64,000 bases of DNA from Lampris incognitus (Eukaryota > Chordata > Actinopteri > Lampriformes > Lampridae): assembly GCF_029633865.1 (NCBI RefSeq), contig NC_079213.1, positions 109,478,582-109,542,581 on the forward strand, written 5' to 3'. Position 1 is the first letter of the stretch, and each line of letters begins with the position of its first letter. The notes below the pieces were generated by a model, which made no database searches, was not told the origin of the DNA, and saw only the letters and a program-made list of their open reading frames with translations. The translations under genes were made by a program, and so were the position numbers. Shown here in pieces: positions 3,292-48,557 of the stretch.

Positions 3292-4176
3292 TGCGTCTCC
3301 CTTTTTATAGCGGCCCCGCCACGGCCACGCCCTCTATGCTAATGAGATGGTGACGCGGCAAGTTGCCGCGTTTTCGCCAACCGGAAATAGTATTTCGAAT
3401 CTCTCGTCTGGCCGTAAATGTGATTTTAGGGCTACCGCTTGTCTCATCGAGCACAGCCGCACAAACACCAGGAAAAGTCGGACTCTTGCGTCGAAATCCG
3501 AAGAAGCCCGGTGGGGCTGCCTAAAGACAGGAAAAGGGAAGTGCTGGTCCCGCTAATAAGTAGTTTTTTTTCTTCTTCTTCAAAAAAGGACAAACGGGGC
3601 ATTCCGATGGAGGGCGTCGAGCTAGCAAGTAGCAACGATAGCCCGGAAGCGTCTACCGTCGGCTGCAGCGGTGCACAGCCTCAGCTAGCTAGCGACGGAA
3701 ACGTTAGCCCGGAAGTGTTTAGCTCCAGCAGCGACACTTCCGCCTGTGCTAGGGGCGCAACAAGATAAGGGGAAAACCAGAGAGGAAACGGACGAAGACG
3801 GGGATGACCAAACCAGTGGAAAGGTTAGGTCGGCGCTGGGCAAGACAAGACTCCTGCAAACCTCTTGCACGTTGTGCCGAGAAATGGACTCCGGACAACC
3901 TTCCCCGGAACAACCACGGGTCAGAAAAGGCTTTCAGCGCTCTCTTCGATGGCCGTCGAGTCGGACCCTGTGAGGGAGCTGGATTTGGAGGACTTGATCA
4001 CGGAGTTTGCGCAGGAAAGGTCAAGGAAGAAGACCTCCTAAAGGTAGGAACCAGTTGATAATGTTGTCTGCGCATTGAGCAGTATTAGCTGTTGTGATTG
4101 TGTGTCGCTGTATAGTGTAACGTGCATGGATAAGAAGACACGCTGGCCGCTGGCAGGCGGGTCTGACCCTTTAGTT

Positions 4177-4859
4177 CAGTGGCTCTCAACCTTTTTGGGG
4201 TCCTGGACCCCCCTGCGTATTTTTGATCTACCCTGAGGACCCCTCCACCTGATCTTGGGGGAGGGGGGTTGCAATTTGATAGAAACAGTAGAAACTGCAT
4301 TTTAAATTGCATTATAGCATTTATTCACTCTTTGGGGCAAAAATAAGAGCTGTAACTTAGATATAGTTAACAAAACAGAATATGTATTCAGTAACTTTCA
4401 GATATATGTAACAAAAAGAATATGTATTCAGTAACTTTCAGATATATGTAACAAAACAGAATATGTATTCAGTAACTTTCAGATATATGTAACAAAACAG
4501 AATATGTATTCAGTAACTTTCAGATATATGTAACAAAACAGAATATGTATTCAGTAACTTTCAGATATATGTAACAAAACAGGATTTTTATGCAGTAACT
4601 TTTAACAATGCAAACGGGAGCGAGATCTCTTATTAAAATACAATAAATTACACTTGTGAAACAGGTGTAATTAGAGAAAAAAGTCCTGTTACCCTTTATA
4701 GTTTAGGTAGATAAAGGTCTCAGTCACATCTGAGTAAAATAATCCTATTTCTATAAATGTCATAGGATCTTTTTTTTAAAGCTATTTTATTTTCACGGAC
4801 CCCTTGCAATTACACCACGGACCACTGGGGGTCCGCGGACCCCCGGTTGAGAAACACTG
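4177..4859. mobile_element. hAT-Charlie-like MITE (683 bp) inserted in the solo LTR
   Basis: It starts CAGTGGCTCTCAACC and ends GGTTGAGAAACACTG, an imperfect inverted repeat typical of Charlie-group hAT ends. The 8-bp target duplication is CTTTAGTT (4169-4176) and CTTTAGTC (4860-4867). The related LTR at 5779-5921 shows the uninterrupted site (CTTTAGTCGAGCGG), so the insertion point is confirmed within this window. A second copy in the opposite orientation lies at 48954-49602. No transposase is encoded. Confidence 0.92.
4371..4600. repeat. 41-bp minisatellite inside the hAT MITE
   Basis: About five tandem units of 40-41 bp begin near 4371, 4412, 4452, 4493 and 4534, followed by a partial, diverged unit. 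Each contains AATATGTATTCAGTAACTTT. The partner MITE at 49.0-49.6 kb carries a diverged array of the same unit, so the array predates the two insertions or evolves within the family. Confidence 0.9.
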
Positions 4860-4964
4860 CTTTAGTCGAGGGGTTAGCGATGTCCCCTGCGGTGTGGGTG
4901 ACACGGGTTCGCTTCCCGGTCGCGACAGTTCCTGTGGTTGCGTCGTTCCCCCGAATTCGCTACA

Positions 4965-5778: not shown

Positions 5779-5921
5779 TATAATGTGCATGGATAAGAGG
5801 CTGGCGGGTCTGACCCTTTAGTCGAGCGGTTAGCGATGCCTCCTGCGGTGCGGGCGATACGGGTTCGCGTCCCGGCCGCGGCAGTCCCTGTGGTTGCGTT
5901 GTCCCCCCCGAATTCGCTATA
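5779..5921 (+). mobile_element. Solo LTR (143 bp) of the tRNA-promoter TRIM family
   Basis: It begins TATAATGTGCATGG and ends GAATTCGCTATA, each one change from the family TGT..ACA ends. It is flanked by 4-bp copies of ATAG (5775-5778 and 5922-5925). A tRNA-like A box (TTAGTCGAGCGG, 5818-5829) and B box (GGGTTCGCGTCC, 5861-5872) are 31 bp apart in the same orientation. This spacing is usual for a Pol III type 2 promoter. It is the uninterrupted paralogue of 4116-4964. Confidence 0.8.
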
Positions 5922-13446: not shown

Positions 13447-14755
13447 TTTTGTCTTCTTTTGATGGCTGGGAGAGTTGGCGCTGGATCGGCTGGGAGAGCC
13501 TGGTCTGGTGTGTCCTGTGGGCCCAGGGACTACGGCCCTGACTGCAGCTGCTCCCGAAGCGGTAACACCAAGGGCGGTCTGACAGGATGCAGAAGCAGGG
13601 CAGGCTAAGCTAACTGCTAGCTCATGCAGACCGGCAGTTCCGATAACACCAAGGGCGGTCTGGCGGCGGCCTCGCCTAGCGTTGACTGTGTTTTGGTGTC
13701 ATCGTGTGGAGTGCGGGTAGGTGTGTTGAGGGTGTCTGGCTGGGAGAGCTGGCCTTGGATCAGCTGGGGGAGCCTGGTCTGCTGCGTCCGGTGGGCCCAG
13801 GGACCACGGCCCTGCCAGAGCTGCGCCTGAGGAGGAAACACCAAGGGCGGTCTGGCGGCGGCCTCGCCTAGCGTTGACTGTGTTTTGGTGTCATCGTGTG
13901 GAGTGCGGGTAGGTGTGTCGAGGGTGTCTGGCTGGGAGAGCTGGCCTTGGATCAGCTGGGGGAGCCTGGTCTGCTGCGTCCGGTGGGCCCAGGGACCACG
14001 GCCCTGCCAGAGCTGCGCCTGAGGAGGAAACACCGAGGGCGGTCTGGCGGCGGCCTCGCCTAGCGTTGACTGTGTTTTGGTGTCATCGTGTGGAGTGCGG
14101 GTAGGTGTGTCGAGGGTGTCCGGCTGGGAGAGCTGGCCTTGGATCAGCTGGGGGAGCCTGGTCTGCTGCGTCCGGTGGGCCCAGGGACCACGGCCCTGCC
14201 AGAGCTGCGCCCGAGGAGGAAACACTGAGGGCGGTCTGGCGGCGGCCTCGCCTAGCGTTGACTGTGTTTTGGTGTCATCGTGTGGAGTGCGGGTAGGTGT
14301 GTCGAGGGTGTCTGGCTGGGAGAGCTGGCCTTGGATCAGCTGGGGGAGCCTGGTCTGCTTAGTCCGGTTGGCCCAGGGACCACGGCCCTGCCAGAGCTGC
14401 GCCCGAGGAGGAAACACCGAGGGCGGTCTGGCAGGACACGGAAGCGGGGCTGGCTGCTGGCCCATGCAGACCGGCAGTTCCAGCGGTCATCCTGGCTGGC
14501 GTTCGTTCTCTGGACAGTGGAATTTGTGGACTGTGTTGCACTGAGTGGACTGAGTTGTCAACTGTGTGTGTGTTTTTTGTCCTCCTTTGTTCTCTCTGTG
14601 ATTGTATGTTTTTGGTGGTGTCGTTTTTGGGAAAGTTTGAATGTGTGTGTTTGTCTTTGTGTCGCACTGCTGTGGGCTGGGGGGAGTCGGAATTCCGTTT
14701 CTTTCGCGTACACGAGTACATGAAAGAAATGACAATAAATTGTTCCTGATTCCGG
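13447..14755 (+). mobile_element. Retroposon-like unit: minisatellite core with LINE-like 3' end
   Basis: Related edge blocks (GCAGACCGGCAGTTCC at about 13625-13640 and 14465-14480) bracket a 192-bp tandem array. After the array comes a GT-rich segment ending GACAATAAATTGTTCCTGATTC, which looks like a retroposon 3' end with an AATAAA. No protein domain is recognisable. It may be the 3' region of a LINE or a composite retroposon; the clade is unknown. Confidence 0.5.
13647..14414. repeat. 192-bp tandem repeat, four full units
   Basis: Units start at 13647, 13839, 14031 and 14223, and a partial fifth starts at 14415. Each begins CACCRAGGGCGGTCTGGC or a close variant, and the units are nearly identical. 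Because 192 is a multiple of three, both strands keep long open frames (282 codons on minus). This is a by-product of the period and not evidence of a protein. Confidence 0.97.
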
Positions 14756-31548: not shown

Positions 31549-32093
31549 ACGTAATTTTGTCCCCACATGAGTGAGTGCAGCTTCTCTGGTTTCTGGCTTA
31601 AAGCTGGGGTAGGCAAGTTTGGAAAAATGAGCAATTTCGACATAATACCCCCCCACACACACACACACACACTTGCCTCTGCTTCCCCCTTCCCTCCCGT
31701 AACCCCTCCTTGCAGATGAGGTCAACACACACGTTTGGCTATTATGTCTGACAAAACTCGTACTTCCATTGACAGTCTACGTATGCGTATTAAAATTATT
31801 CTTTTCGGCGAATCTTTTAGGTACCCCGACATTGATGTTGTGAAGCACTTTTGTACTTGAAGGTGAAGTATCTGTTAAGATGAAGGCTATTGGGCAGCCC
31901 AATAGTTAGCGTTCTCGCCTTACAGCAAGAAGGTCCCGTGTAGCGAATTCAGGGGTTAACCGGGAACCGCCGCAGCCAGGACGTGAACCTGGGTCACCGG
32001 CGCCATGGGCGAATACGCTAACCAGTCAACTAAAGGGTCTGACCCATTAGCCAACTGGCTAGCGAATATAGTCTTCTGTGATTGTTACACTAA

Positions 32094-32104
32094 CTCCCTC
32101 CTTT
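32094..32104 (-). promoter_or_regulatory. Polypurine tract of the TRIM-like element
   Basis: The minus strand reads AAAGGAGGGAG, four bases before the 3' LTR, which is the position expected for plus-strand priming. Confidence 0.75.
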
Positions 32105-32187
32105 GGGAAGCGCGTTACCGCGCTTTAGCATATCAGCTCCCTCACACCTCTGGGCGCACACGCTTCCGATGGCCTCACGGTCTCACC

Positions 32188-32205
32188 ATCCCACTTCTGA
32201 CACCA
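32188..32205 (-). promoter_or_regulatory. Primer-binding site for tRNA-Leu (CAA type)
   Basis: The minus strand reads TGGTGTCAGAAGTGGGAT. This is the complement of the vertebrate tRNA-Leu(CAA) 3' end ATCCCACTTCTGACA plus CCA, with no mismatch against the sequence as I recall it. One base separates it from the LTR. Confidence 0.85.
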
Positions 32206-32246
32206 GTGTAGCGAATTCAGGGGGTAGCCGGGAACTGCCACAGCCA

Positions 32247-32301
32247 GGACGCGAACCCGGGTTACCTGCACCACGGGCGACTGCGCTAAGCAGTCAACTA
32301 A
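32247..32301 (-). promoter_or_regulatory. tRNA-like A and B boxes inside the TRIM 5' LTR
   Basis: On the minus strand the A-box-like TTAGTTGACTG (32291-32301) is followed 32 bp later by the B box GGGTTCGCGTCC (32247-32258). Spacing and order match a Pol III type 2 promoter reading into the element. The other LTR of the same element (31939-32089) has the same arrangement with a weaker B box (GGTTCACGTCC). Confidence 0.7.
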
Positions 32302-32660
32302 AGGGTCTGACCTGTTAGCCAAGGGCTAGCGAGTCTAGTCATCCATGGTTGTTATACTTGGGTTCGAATCCTGGGGTTGTCCAACCTTAGGGGGTTGTCG
32401 TCCTCTGTGTGGAGTTTGCATGTTCTCCCCGTGTCTGCGGTGGGTTTTCTCCGGGTGTTCTGGTTTCTTTCACCATCAAAAAGACATGCATGTTAGGGTT
32501 AATACCCCTGTCTTTGCCCCTGACTGAGGCAGTGGGAAAAGAACTGGAGTTGGTCCCTGGGCGCTGCACGATGGCTGCCCACTGCTCCTAGCTACACAGC
32601 TAGGCTGGGTTAAATGCAGAGCTGAATCTCCCCAAGAGGGATTAATAAATATATCAAAAT

Positions 32661-34239
32661 CAAATCAATAAATAACATCCATAGTGATGAGAAGAAAAGT
32701 GACAAAATTGTTACGCACACGAATGATTGACAGGAAGTACAACCACCCCTTCACAAAGAGTTCCCCTGATTGGTTGAGGGCTACTATTAGCAGTAATGCC
32801 TCGACCAATCAGGGGAGCTCAGGGGAGATTTTTTTGTCATCCTGAATACACCGCGGGGTTAAACACAGCAGCTTGGTTTTCTCTCAGGCCATTTGAATGA
32901 CTCGTATCTGTAAGAGGGATGTCTGTTTCCTCACAAGTAGCCCTGAAAGAGAGTTGCCTAGCCTAGCTGTAATAAGAGACTTAGCTATTTTCACAACCAT
33001 GGGCCTCAGCAATGACAAGTAGCTAAAGTGGGACAGTCTTCCACTTCATGGGTTTGCAATGCTTCACCCCAGAGAGAGATGATATATTTCTTAACCTTGG
33101 CTCTTTTGCTGGAAACTTTTAAAAATCACATCCATTAGCTCCACCCTAATTAAAATGGATACCGTGCCATGTTTCCCAATGTGCATCAGCAGACGTTTGC
33201 TTAAAGCACCATGAAGGATTGCAACGGAGCAGGTGCTCTGTTTTCCACTTTGCCGGATGACACCTTTCAGATTCTCCGGGATAAGGTATTTTGTCAGGCT
33301 TATATTTTACCAACACCAAACACAATAACCCTGCTAATGCACCGTTGGCTGGCGATTTGTTCTCGTTTGTCATCTCTGAAAGTGCAATGGCAAACACTAC
33401 ATGGAAATACGAGCCTGGCAGAGGTGGACCAGCTCGGCTGGCCTGGGTCGTCCTCTGCAGCTCTCATCAAGGAGGAAGAAGACCCGCTTTAGCAGAGGTA
33501 AATACTACGTCTGTCAGTGATTTGAAGGGATCGATGTACTTTTGAGGGAAAGGAAAAGGTTTCGTTGAATGTTCTCTTTCTATTTTTGGTAACGGTGTTT
33601 TGGTAATGGTGTGTGCATTGCTGAATTTGCTCACCCACAAAGGAAATGGGTCAAACAACACTGAATAGCAGCATTTAGAAAAAAAAAAGTTTTATTATAT
33701 ATATATCTCAATATTGATATTGGTATTCTGCTCCTCATTAGTTGAGGACTTCTATCGACACCATTAACGGTTTCTGGGGGAAAAAAAGTGTGTATATATA
33801 GAGTCCGGATCTGGTTCAAATCCAGATCCGGACTAGCTCCCACGTGTTACTGGTCATCAAAGAACTCATCTGACAGTCCTTTGATGACCACTCCGTGCAC
33901 GTAGACACCTCGCGATAAACTCGCTGGCCCTCTGAACTTGCTTCATCACCCACTTGCGATGAAGCAGCACTTGTTACAACCCCGGCTTGAAGGACGTCAC
34001 AAAAGAAGGGAGACAAGTCGAGGGTTGCAATAACAATCAAAATATTTAATAATACCAAAAAATGAATAAAGTTATAAAAACAACGTGCTGGTCGGAGAGA
34101 GGAAGCGGTGGGATCCCGGAAGTCTCAGGAAATGCACAGATCCCCCCCCCCCCCTCGGAAACCTCCCCGGAGCGCAGGAACAACAGAGCGCGAAACCTGC
34201 CAACCTGAAACTGAAACAGAGAGAAAGCCAGCAGGCAGG
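32661..34239. other. Non-coding, with one short inverted repeat
   Basis: TCCCCTGATTGGTTGAGG near 32763 is repeated in inverted form near 32797-32816, forming a hairpin of about 17 bp. Several open frames (33146-33545) lie on overlapping strands and resemble no family. No gene is supported. Confidence 0.45.
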
Positions 34240-39419: not shown

Positions 39420-40730
39420 TCACTGAGGCCTCTCTCCGTGAAACCTTCGGTGTCTGTACCTCCCGCTCTTCTCCTTGGCCGTGTTGATGCACGCGTTGTG
39501 CTTGTTGCTCTGCAAGTGGTTCCAGTACTTGACGAGTTCGCTGGGCTGGAACTGATGGGACGTTATCAGGTGGCTGTACTTGCAGCTGGAGTAGGACACT
39601 CGCCAGTGGTTGAAGAGGAACTCGTTGGGTGGCGGTGCGGGGTCAATGCGCAGCTTGGCCAAGCAGATCCCCACGTACACGTCCTCCAGGTGCAGCCTGC
39701 GTATGCTGAGGGAGGCCTGGTAGATCAGCTCGGCCATGTCCCCCGAGAACACGTACCCCGTCCCCGAGCAGAAAATGGGGTAGCGCTCGCTGGGGTACAG
39801 TTCGGGCGGCATGTACCACTTGCTGTCTTTGTTTCGGTTTGGTGCGTAGCCCCTCATCAGGTAGCCCGTGAAATACCTCTGTCTGGGAGGCAGCTCGGGC
39901 TTCAACAGCTTCTGAATGAGATACTCCGTGTTGACGAACATGTCGCTGTCCGTCTTCATCACGTAGCTGGCGTGTGGACAGTGGGTAGCGACCCAGTTCA
40001 TGCCCATCAGCGTCTTGACGGTCAAGTTGTAGTATGTGTCCAGGTAGTCCTGCTGGATGATGTCTCGGTGAACACGGCTCTCCTCCTCTATGTTGCTCTG
40101 GAGGTAGCTGTCTGAGCTCTTTCCCCTGCCGAGCAGGAAGAGACGGATAAACCCTAGCCCAATCACCACGCTCTCGTTCCCCCATGTCTGGCGGATGGCA
40201 TTGCGGGCATCTACCTGGCCAGGTTCCGCAGCGATGAGGAGGATGAGGAAGGGAGTGCTGTCCCGGCACTTTAGGGGCTCGTTGAGGATGTAGTGGTACG
40301 GCTGAGCGTTGAGCCGTCCTCCAACACCCATCTCCTTCTGTAAACTGTTATTGGTGCTCATGGAATCCTCAAGCCCCATCACACCTGTCTTGGGTCCTCC
40401 TCCGCCCCCCTCGCCGGCCCCCTCTGCCTGCTGAATGCTGAAGTTGAGTAGAGGCTTGGGCGCAACATACCCTGCCTCCCTCCACAGGCTCCTGAGCGAT
40501 GTGCTCTGATTGGGCTCCAACTTTGAGCTGCGGAAGCCCCTGATGGTGTAGGCCAGTGGGTTGTCCCGGGGCCCACTGCGCCCTGGTAACCAGTCCTGGT
40601 GACTGAAGAAGAGGAAGAGGGTGAAGAGCAAAGCCAATGAGAGAAGGCCAGCAACATGGGTCCGGAAGAGGGAACGCTTGATGGTCCAGGTCATCTTGAT
40701 GGGACAGCAATGCCGCCGTCTCCACTGCAT
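39420..40730 (-). CDS. b3galt2: Beta-1,3-galactosyltransferase 2 (GT31 family), complete single-exon CDS
   Basis: This 436-residue type II Golgi membrane enzyme is expected to add galactose in beta-1,3 linkage to terminal N-acetylglucosamine from UDP-galactose. It has a short basic cytosolic tail (MQWRRRHCC), a membrane anchor at about residues 25-43 and a stem rich in G/E around 100-115. The GT31 domain spans about 165-390. Family motifs are visible: RQTWGNES at 180-187, the metal-binding TDSDMF with DSD at 261-263, YFTGYLMRG near 286, and EDVYVGICLAKL at 349-360. Sequons occur near residues 74, 96, 127, 185 and 235. The whole length matches human B3GALT2 closely. The frame stays open upstream of 40730, but without an ATG; MQWRRR is the conserved start and has A at -3. 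The coding part is intronless, as usual for this family. Confidence 0.98.
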   Translation of the reverse strand: MQWRRRHCCPIKMTWTIKRSLFRTHVAGLLSLALLFTLFLFFSHQDWLPGRSGPRDNPLAYTIRGFRSSKLEPNQSTSLRSLWREAGYVAPKPLLNFSIQQAEGAGEGGGGGPKTGVMGLEDSMSTNNSLQKEMGVGGRLNAQPYHYILNEPLKCRDSTPFLILLIAAEPGQVDARNAIRQTWGNESVVIGLGFIRLFLLGRGKSSDSYLQSNIEEESRVHRDIIQQDYLDTYYNLTVKTLMGMNWVATHCPHASYVMKTDSDMFVNTEYLIQKLLKPELPPRQRYFTGYLMRGYAPNRNKDSKWYMPPELYPSERYPIFCSGTGYVFSGDMAELIYQASLSIRRLHLEDVYVGICLAKLRIDPAPPPNEFLFNHWRVSYSSCKYSHLITSHQFQPSELVKYWNHLQSNKHNACINTAKEKSGRYRHRRFHGERPQ

Positions 40731-41084
40731 GGTGCAGATTGGGCCAGCAGGAGGCTGCTGCTCGGGAATGGGCGGCGGCGACAATCGCACACAGTCACCT
40801 CGAACATGTGGTTGCCAACAGCCAGAGGATTATCTGAGCTGGCAGATGGGCTGGAGAGAGCCTCCTAGTGCAGTCAGGGGGAATGCTTGGAGCCCCGGTC
40901 GGCAGCTTGGAGCAATGTTATCAGGACTCCTGGGGGAGCTGGGAAGGCGATGATTCTTTGGCCATGGAGGCTACTCCTCGGTTCTCTTCCTTGGCGATGC
41001 TGACAAACGTGTGGGTCACGCCCTGTGTCTGGGCTCCTCCGGGATGTGATAAGGGTCACCTCCTCAGTGGCTGCGCTTTCTCAT
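40731..41084 (-). other. b3galt2: b3galt2 5' UTR part of the coding exon, with upstream ATGs
   Basis: This is the leader between the splice acceptor and the start codon. On the minus strand it contains at least three upstream ATGs. One, at 41084-41082, opens a six-codon frame. A second, ATGGCCAAAGAA, opens 14 codons. A third, ATGTTCGAGGTG, runs past and overlaps the main start in another frame. Such an arrangement could lower translation of b3galt2. This is inferred from sequence only. Confidence 0.6.
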
Positions 41085-47223: not shown

Positions 47224-47377
47224 TGTAACCGGTTATTTTCTTGCCCGGTGCGGGATTCGATACGGGATGTACTGCACAACAAGGCGACGTCACTAACCGC
47301 TCGGCTAAAGGGTCAGACCCGTTAGCTAGGGGCTAACGTGTCTTGTTAGTAGTTTACAGTCGTCACCCTCCCCGGAA

Positions 47378-47986
47378 GCGATATTATGAACCCTACATAG
47401 CCCTCGCCAAAATCCCGTACCCTGTCCCAAATCTCGCGAACGGACGCCGGATTTCCGCTGCGTTGCTAAGGAAACAATCAACTATCAACTCGGTGCGAAG
47501 CAAAGCTAACGTTAGCTACCTTCAATTTTGTAATTTTGTATTTTTCGCAATTTTGGACAGCTGGCTGCTTTTGTAATTTTGGACTGCTGGCTGTCAACAA
47601 CAGAACGGAGGTAAGTAACGTTAGTTGTCTGAAAATGAACATATATCTAATAAATAGACTTTCTCACATTTAAGAAAGCTGATCAGTAAGTTGTTACCTG
47701 TGTATAAATGTAAAAGTCATATTACTACAATATAGGAGCTCGTTTTGTTTGTAGTCATGATAAGGGGTGAAGTATCCTATGCTCAAACGTGGAGCAAGCA
47801 AAGATTGAGTTAAAAACGTTAATGTTGATTGTGGATAACTTAGACAGGTTAAATTGTGGGTGTACAGCGTTTCCTTGATGAGCGCTAACCCCATAACAAC
47901 ATATTTTCGCGTTGCTACGGTGGCGCACACGTGACAAAGCCAGAAACGGGATTTTGGCGAGGCCTATGTAGGGTTCATAATATCGC
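47378..47986. mobile_element. Mutator-like MITE (609 bp) inside the TRIM interior
   Basis: Inverted ends of 41 bp, with one mismatch, start GCGATATTATGAACCCTACA. Identical 9-bp duplications TCCCCGGAA flank it (47369-47377 and 47987-47995). The interior has no transposase. Its insertion point lies in the short TRIM interior, so it arrived after the TRIM element. Confidence 0.9.
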
Positions 47987-48047
47987 TCCCCGGAAGCGCG
48001 CCCTCGCGCTTTGTTCTTCCCGCGCTCCGAAGTCTGCACACTTCCGG

Positions 48048-48065
48048 ATCCCACCGCTGCCACCA
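48048..48065 (-). promoter_or_regulatory. Primer-binding site for tRNA-Leu (AAG/TAG type)
   Basis: The minus strand reads TGGTGGCAGCGGTGGGAT. This is the complement of a vertebrate tRNA-Leu 3' end ATCCCACCGCTGCCA plus CCA, with no mismatch as I recall it. It is one base from the LTR. Confidence 0.85.
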
Positions 48066-48094
48066 ATGTAACCGGTTATTTTCTTGCCCGGTGC

Positions 48095-48151
48095 GGGATT
48101 CGATACGGGGTGTACTGCACCACAAGGCGACATCACTAACCGCTCGGCTAA
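48095..48151 (-). promoter_or_regulatory. tRNA-like A and B boxes inside the second TRIM 5' LTR
   Basis: The A box TTAGCCGAGCGG (48140-48151) and B box GTATCGAATCCC (48095-48106) are read on the minus strand, 33 bp apart. The 47.2-kb LTR keeps the same boxes. Confidence 0.7.
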
Positions 48152-48557
48152 AGGGTCAGTCCCGCTAGCTAGGGGGCTAACGTGTCTTATTAGTAGTTTA
48201 CACAATCATTAAAAAAACAAAACGTCAGTTGCCCCACCCAAAGGGTGCAACCAAACCTCTCTGCTCCCGCTCAACCTGCCTCTACGTAGCCTTTTGCGTT
48301 TAGCTAGCACGCTCCGGACGGGGCCGCAGCACGGGCGATGGGGGGGGGGCATGTCGGGTACCCGGAGGCACACGGCGGGGACATCAGGGCTTCAGTTTAT
48401 GGTTCCGGCAGTTTTCGAAGAAGGTTGACTCAGTTCATCTGGACACAGCGTTTCTTGACAGATACGTTTCACCTGTCTGTGAATGTTGTCATTCATCCAG
48501 CTCATGGTTATCCGAAGGAGTTGAATCGAGTGCAACTGGACCAAGCTAGTCAGAAAG

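Follow-up and report, generated by a model that had tools for sequence, protein, structure and literature searches.

Structure of the element and its insertion site

The stretch of DNA analysed here (the window, 64 kb) carries a complete miniature LTR element on its minus strand, at exactly the coordinates given in the initial annotation. The components of the element and of the site in which it lies are as follows:

31939-32356, minus: complete miniature LTR element, 418 bp
32207..32356, minus: 5' LTR, 150 bp, beginning with TA (TG in most of the family) and ending with CA
32290..32300, minus: A-box-like block of the 5' LTR, TAGTTGACTGC
32247..32257, minus: B-box-like block of the 5' LTR, GGTTCGCGTCC
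32090..32206, minus: non-coding interior, 117 bp
32188..32205, minus: primer-binding site (PBS), 18 nt, TGGTGTCAGAAGTGGGAT, one base inside the 5' LTR, that base being C
32108..32125, minus: interior hairpin AAGCGCG-GTAA-CGCGCTT, preceding the purine tract
32090..32104, minus: polypurine-tract-like (PPT) stretch AAAGGAGGGAGTTAG, abutting the 3' LTR
31939..32089, minus: 3' LTR, 151 bp, TG..CA
32016..32064, minus: hairpin of the 3' LTR (arms 32064-32041 and 32039-32016), with the A box within its 3' arm
32022..32032, minus: A-box-like block of the 3' LTR, TAGTTGACTGG
31979..31989, minus: B-box-like block of the 3' LTR, GGTTCACGTCC
31935..31938, plus: target duplication, left copy, CCCG
32357..32360, plus: target duplication, right copy, CTTG, equal to the left copy at 2/4 bases
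31890..31938, plus: 5' part (head) of the interrupted SINE, from the joined flanks
32361..32640, plus: remainder of the interrupted SINE, right end approximate and placed by eye

Direct repeats join 31935-32054 to 32203-32322 (120 nt, 87%) and 32057-32091 to 32324-32358 (35 nt, 80%), the LTR boundaries being set by taking the ends as TG..CA; the two LTRs differ by a K2P of 0.175, or 0.127 once CpG columns are removed. The primer site, which we take to be complementary to the 3' end of tRNA-Leu, has no second exact 18-mer occurrence on either strand of the 64 kb window. A and B blocks stand 32 bp apart in both LTRs, with one A-box and two B-box mismatches in the 3' LTR and two and one in the 5' LTR, and neither LTR possesses two good boxes. 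Because the primer site and the boxes sit on the minus strand, the element is read in that orientation, and a plus-strand reading was rejected on the same grounds. The architecture that had been proposed from the letters alone—LTRs of about 150 bp, a 117-bp interior, an 18-base primer site, a purine tract and no coding capacity, with A- and B-box-like blocks about 32 bp apart in each LTR—was recovered in full. In the terms by which TRIMs are recognised, the element has two short LTRs, a total length of 418 bp (limit about 1 kb), no coding capacity, a PBS beside the 5' LTR and a PPT beside the 3' LTR.

The element inserted within a tRNA-headed SINE. When the flanks are joined after removal of one duplication copy, they read ...AAGGTCCCGGGTTCGAATCC..., which runs through the SINE head and B-box region uninterrupted. 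The two C/T differences between CCCG and CTTG are compatible with decay, yet with only two of four bases equal this single case is weak. Alignment of the interrupted SINE head to the LTR block gave scores of 34 and 35, against means of 20.0 and 19.5 (sd 3.6-3.7, maximum 34) in 500 shuffles each, which lends modest support to a common tRNA origin of the two sequences. The heads of tRNA-headed fish SINEs (SINE2) thus resemble the TRIM LTR block; SINEs themselves have no LTRs, PBS or 4-bp duplications.

Elsewhere in the window, a long single frame on the minus strand (39420-40829, 469 aa from stop to stop) resembles what we take to be b3galt2 (beta-1,3-galactosyltransferase 2), which points to a vertebrate and probably a ray-finned fish as host. 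Open frames on both strands at 13617-14486 comprise a unit of about 63 residues repeated in tandem almost perfectly, probably a minisatellite.

Distribution of the family across the genome

We searched the assembly that contains the window (1.48 Gb in 537 contigs) and scored the best 40 of 6455 first-look candidates, a figure that is not a copy count. At least 50 places were recovered, 48 of them spanning at least 323 bp at 78-100% identity and two being short (103 bp at 82% and 109 bp at 72%). These 50 best-scoring places collapse to 40 loci, the window locus included, and all their sequences were retrieved (L041 is a repeat of L002). As the loci are the best-scoring places, the sample is biased toward intact copies and toward similarity to the window copy. 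None of 20 random 10-kb stretches (200 kb in all, of which 7554 N) had a match at E 1e-4, a result that only bounds the copy density.

Every one of the 40 loci shows an LTR-interior-LTR arrangement or a truncated or chained form of it. A single interior is present in 30 of them. The other 10 (L002, L004, L010, L016, L018, L019, L027, L031, L036 and L038) have chains of two or more interiors, for example LTR-int-LTR-int-LTR, that repeat about every 267 bp. A perfect 4-bp target duplication flanks 15/40 loci, the window copy itself having 2/4. Among the 22 loci with both ends located, the duplication scores 4/4 in 12, 3/4 in four, 2/4 in five and 1/4 in one; in the remaining 18, L017, L018 and L033 score 4/4 and the other 15 score 0-2, mostly with a truncated or shifted end. 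When read as 5-bp duplications, none of the 40 loci exceeded 3/5. The perfect duplications are ATAT (seven), CTAT and ATAC (two each), and ATAG, TGTG, TACA and CAAG (one each), and 12 of the 15 follow the pattern NTAN. Whole chains can likewise be bounded by one perfect duplication, as in L002 (CAAG) and L018 (ATAC). TGTA is the LTR start in most of the rows tabulated for ends and duplications. The LTR boundaries, whose genome-wide repetition had been named as a check on the initial reading, do recur over the 40 loci. Inside the elements, the PBS is retained with at most two mismatches in 48 of the 49 interiors kept (from 53 interior matches), and the interior hairpin is paired in 299/343 cells across the same set.

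Exactly two LTRs were kept at 32 loci, among which five are chains; the median K2P over these 32 is 0.179 (0.117 without CpG columns), which points to an old family. Kept LTRs in the chained loci L002, L018 and L036 differ by 0.15-0.25. Both interiors of L016 are identical. Of the L038 LTRs, those at 634-784 and 902-1052 are separated by a K2P of 0.027, against 0.150-0.168 between each of them and the LTR at 1170-1319; some chains were therefore expanded or homogenised in place long after insertion. The stretch L038:314-1319 comprises a four-LTR chain, two adjacent LTRs of which are nearly identical, next to an inverted LTR copy, and is, as we read its sequence, a late rearrangement within an old TRIM array.

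Promoter boxes and transcription signals

Box counts were made on 81 of the 95 LTR matches after alignment, the 14 truncated ones being left out. When anchored to the alignment, the A box compared with TRGYNNARYGG has one mismatch in 58 LTRs, more in 23 and a perfect match in none, and the B box compared with GGTTCGANNCC is perfect in one LTR, has a single mismatch in 38 and at least two in 42; in 25/81 LTRs neither box exceeds one mismatch. Their spacing is 32 bp in 77 of the 81 LTRs, and each box contains a near-fixed off-consensus base (C at A-box position 15 in 78/81 and at B-box position 58 in 72/81). The family-wide presence of A and B blocks, which the initial annotation had proposed to check, is thus borne out with one near-fixed mismatch in each. 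An unanchored scan for A-B pairs with at most one mismatch per box, which took a different A-box place in the 5' LTR of the window and is therefore counted separately, found pairs in 32/81 LTRs, against a mean of 0.14 in dinucleotide shuffles and none on the opposite strand.

Likeness to a tRNA beyond the boxes, a further check, was not recovered. ARAGORN called no tRNA gene in the window and a tRNA in only one of the 40 loci (L009), for which Rfam gave a weak match to the tRNA-like mascRNA (E 9.4); Rfam returned no tRNA match and no 5S match for 31600-32700 at E up to 5, and no tRNA-family match in 20 of the 40 loci at E up to 10. A true tRNA gene was rejected on these mostly negative results, and together with the boxes they indicate that what the block shares with a tRNA is its promoter boxes, and that it is not a working tRNA. 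Within the family, conservation of the boxes (0.909 and 0.888) is not clearly higher than that of the rest of the LTR (0.851-0.920). The polyadenylation words AATAAA and ATTAAA occur in none of the 81 LTRs and a TATA-like word in one. T4 runs are present in 5/81 LTRs and 0/49 interiors; with none in the other 76 LTRs or in any interior, a Pol III transcript would usually terminate in flanking DNA. We hold with moderate confidence that the LTR contains tRNA-derived A and B promoter boxes in degraded form, and transcription of the family by Pol III is plausible but unproven.

Related LTR groups in the same window

Two further LTR groups lie in the window:

47224-48202, minus: second, younger, Helenus-like TRIM (family 2), with LTRs of 135 and 136 bp that are 95-97% alike
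4116-4964 and 5779-5921, plus: two solo LTRs of a third group

The second TRIM has its primer site, TGGTGGCAGCGGTGGGAT, at 48065, presumably another of tRNA-Leu type, and both of its LTRs combine a perfect A box (TAGCCGAGCGG) with a B box bearing two mismatches (GTATCGAATCC). By eye, its flanks read CCAT/CAAT; another element, which has 51-nt inverted repeats and, again by eye, TCCCCGGAA (9 bp) on either side, is inserted in the interior. One of the two group-3 solo LTRs has a perfect A box. The solo LTR at 5779-5921 has ATAG on both sides, and that at 4116-4964 is split, at about 4172-4862, by a repeat whose ends (CAGTGG..CACTG) are hAT-like and which has a CTTTAGT duplication, likewise by eye.

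When the three LTR groups are compared, the best-kept segments are reference positions 45-57 (11-12/13) and 58-75 (12-16/18), which together form the stretch up to and across the A box. Other LTR stretches match between groups at anything from 6/18 to 15/25, and both ends contain gaps; the exception is group 1 versus group 3, with 13/15 at 101-115 and 26/36 at 116-151. As a comparison of three groups only, this supports, but does not prove, promoter constraint on the A-box stretch. Beyond the PBS, homology between the interiors of families 1 and 2 was not significant (score 34; shuffles 22.5, sd 4.3, maximum 41).

A hairpin around the A box

Across the family, LTR positions 26-49 pair with 51-74, which places the A box in the second arm of a hairpin. 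The 55-nt stretch 32012-32066 of the window 3' LTR folds with a z of -7.9; for whole LTRs the values are -2.9 and -2.0 in the window and 0.15 (L002) and 0.56 (L014), the latter two no better than shuffles. Over the 81 copies, 1600/1884 stem cells are paired (85%), against 17-47% in slid-partner controls. In family 2 the arms score about 2 and 3 sd better than shuffles, and in the two group-3 LTRs about 1 sd.

Changes in the stem are mostly one-sided. Two-sided changes occur at pair 27-73 (5/80 copies), 26-74 (two) and 49-51 (one), and pairs 27-73 and 26-74 coincide with CpG words, whose decay on each side would produce such changes; covariation as proof of the hairpin was rejected. About half of the copies have lost pair 28-72, and few of them form pairs 34-66 and 44-56. 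The one-sided changes, the CpG location and the broken pairs leave selection on the hairpin unproven. It is with considerable doubt that we raise the idea that selection maintains an RNA hairpin of which the A box is one arm. The apex of this hairpin, GGGTC-N-GACCC, would lie near the expected Pol III start, and in RNA the hairpin would hide the promoter from tRNA processing and mark the U3/R border.

A longer LTR element with matching ends

One of the 20 random 10-kb stretches (L042; G000 C26:16588115-16598114) holds a young LTR element:

L042:2016-6085, minus: young LTR element with 605-bp LTRs, 99.3% identical, with ends TGTA..GACA

Its PBS is identical to the TRIM primer site (18/18), and it is flanked by the target duplication CTAT/CTAT. 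Its junction of purine tract and LTR, GGAGGGGGGCAG or CTGGAGGGGGGCAG followed by TGTA according to the stretch quoted, compares with a TRIM family majority before the LTR of GGAGGGGGGTAG or GAAGGAGGGGGGTAG. The 605-bp LTRs gave no match to the TRIM LTR at E up to 10. The sole long frame of L042 matches Retrotrans_gag at E 4e-4, below the curated cut-off, and contains a weak BRWD1_N match (E 0.0045) and one WD40 repeat (E 1.6e-7), a piece that we presume to be similar to the N-terminus of BRWD/PHIP-type proteins. No pol match was found in this frame, which occupies 2.46 of the 2.86 kb interior; as this leaves no space for pol, L042 must also be moved by another element. L042 seems to be an LTR element that took up a piece of host mRNA and was moved in trans.

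Given that the TRIM and L042 both lack pol and have similar ends and target duplications, a single tRNA-Leu-primed machinery producing 4-bp duplications may serve the two. The shared PBS, PPT junction and CTAT duplication of L042 hint at what this mobilising machinery of the TRIM could be. From the gag match in this one element, together with the account of related TRIMs in PMC10886601, we infer that the machinery may be of Gypsy type.

Proposed life cycle and alternative explanations

We consider it very probable that 31939-32356 is a decayed copy of a Helenus-type TRIM (TRIMp3), with the following proposed cycle. RNA synthesis would start in the 5' LTR, driven by Pol III through the A and B boxes, by Pol II, or by both; reverse transcription would be primed by tRNA-Leu; and a Gypsy-type LTR element in the same genome would supply the proteins for copying and insertion. 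The window copy landed in the SINE and has mutated since, and activity is not expected of it.

The principal alternative is that this is an ordinary Pol II TRIM, in which the boxes are functionless relics of a dead tRNA or SINE fragment and the genomic RNA is made by Pol II. The near-fixed mismatches in both boxes, the poor tRNA fold, the two-mismatch B box of family 2 (GTATCGAATCC) and the missing T4 run in 76/81 LTRs all agree with it, as does box conservation that does not clearly exceed that of the remaining LTR within the family. Against it stand the scarcity of Pol II signals (no polyadenylation word and one TATA-like word in 81 LTRs), the A-box stretch being the best kept between the three window groups, and the perfect A boxes in both family-2 LTRs and in one of the two group-3 solo LTRs. 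We regard this alternative as a serious possibility, though one that falls well short of an even chance.

The chains of about 267-bp period in 10/40 loci would also suit a SINE or satellite-like tandem repeat that mimics an LTR element. Such a repeat is very improbable in the face of the TG..CA ends, the PBS and PPT, the 30/40 loci with one interior only, and the 4-bp duplications that bound even whole chains (CAAG in L002, ATAC in L018). Still less credible, to the point of being practically negligible, is that a single autonomous element left the structure behind through deletion, or that the repeats arose here by chance duplication. The PBS and PPT shared with L042 are all that speaks for this reading. 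Against it, copies with this interior and these ends are found at dispersed loci, so that the family itself refutes it, and the 605-bp LTRs of L042 show no match to the window LTR at E up to 10.

Comparison with known systems

Kojima (2024; PMC10886601) gave the name Helenus to TRIMs whose LTR is tRNA-derived, and the main text of that paper reports them from coelacanth, sterlet (sturgeon), paddlefish, zebrafish, other Cypriniformes/Ostariophysi, bagrid catfish and milkfish. Zebrafish LTR-11_DR is described there with 5575 LTRs, 2618 interiors and tandem arrays; a literature search turned up this family in PMC10886601 only, and the word Helenus in that paper and in a Papilio genome paper. Animal Helenus have 4-bp target duplications and Gypsy-type primer sites, the vertebrate members using tRNA-His, -Leu or -Lys as primers; most Helenus are said to have tRNA-like promoter boxes rather than a working tRNA, and their Pol III transcription is unproven in the same text (PMC10886601). 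The window family shares with Helenus, as so described, the length range, the A/B-box LTR block, the 4-bp duplications, a tRNA-Leu-type PBS and tandem arrays, and differs in the start of the A box, which is TRGTY here and TRGCY in most Helenus (PMC10886601). Placed by these structural features, and compared with the named families by description, the window family is a new member of the Helenus kind. The earlier suggestion that no such vertebrate family had been described does not hold, Helenus, including zebrafish LTR-11_DR, having been published in 2024 (PMC10886601).

What is new here is L042 with its matching ends and the A box as an arm of a family-wide hairpin. As a recently active element, L042 offers a lead beyond the main text of the Helenus paper, which for animals offers primer-site similarity alone. 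The hairpin, if our proposal for it were true, would be a structural adaptation of Pol III-driven LTR elements absent from that paper, whose main text does not contain the word hairpin (PMC10886601). The locus also brings in one more genome in which there are several LTR groups of Helenus type, two more of them in the same 64 kb, and bears on whether any animal LTR element is truly transcribed by Pol III.

The closest parallel outside Helenus is with Cassandra, whose Pol III start and stop are stated in the introduction of PMC10886601 and whose tandem arrays are named in the title of PMC7215508. The initial annotation had seen in the window element a vertebrate equivalent of Cassandra with a captured tRNA promoter; this stands in so far as a vertebrate TRIM has an LTR that is tRNA-derived and Cassandra-like, and falls as a claim to an undescribed family. 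In both, a Pol III promoter appears to have been captured in the LTR of a TRIM, and both form tandem arrays; Cassandra belongs to plants and carries a 5S rRNA promoter, whereas the TRIM of the window belongs to a vertebrate and its promoter boxes are of the tRNA type.
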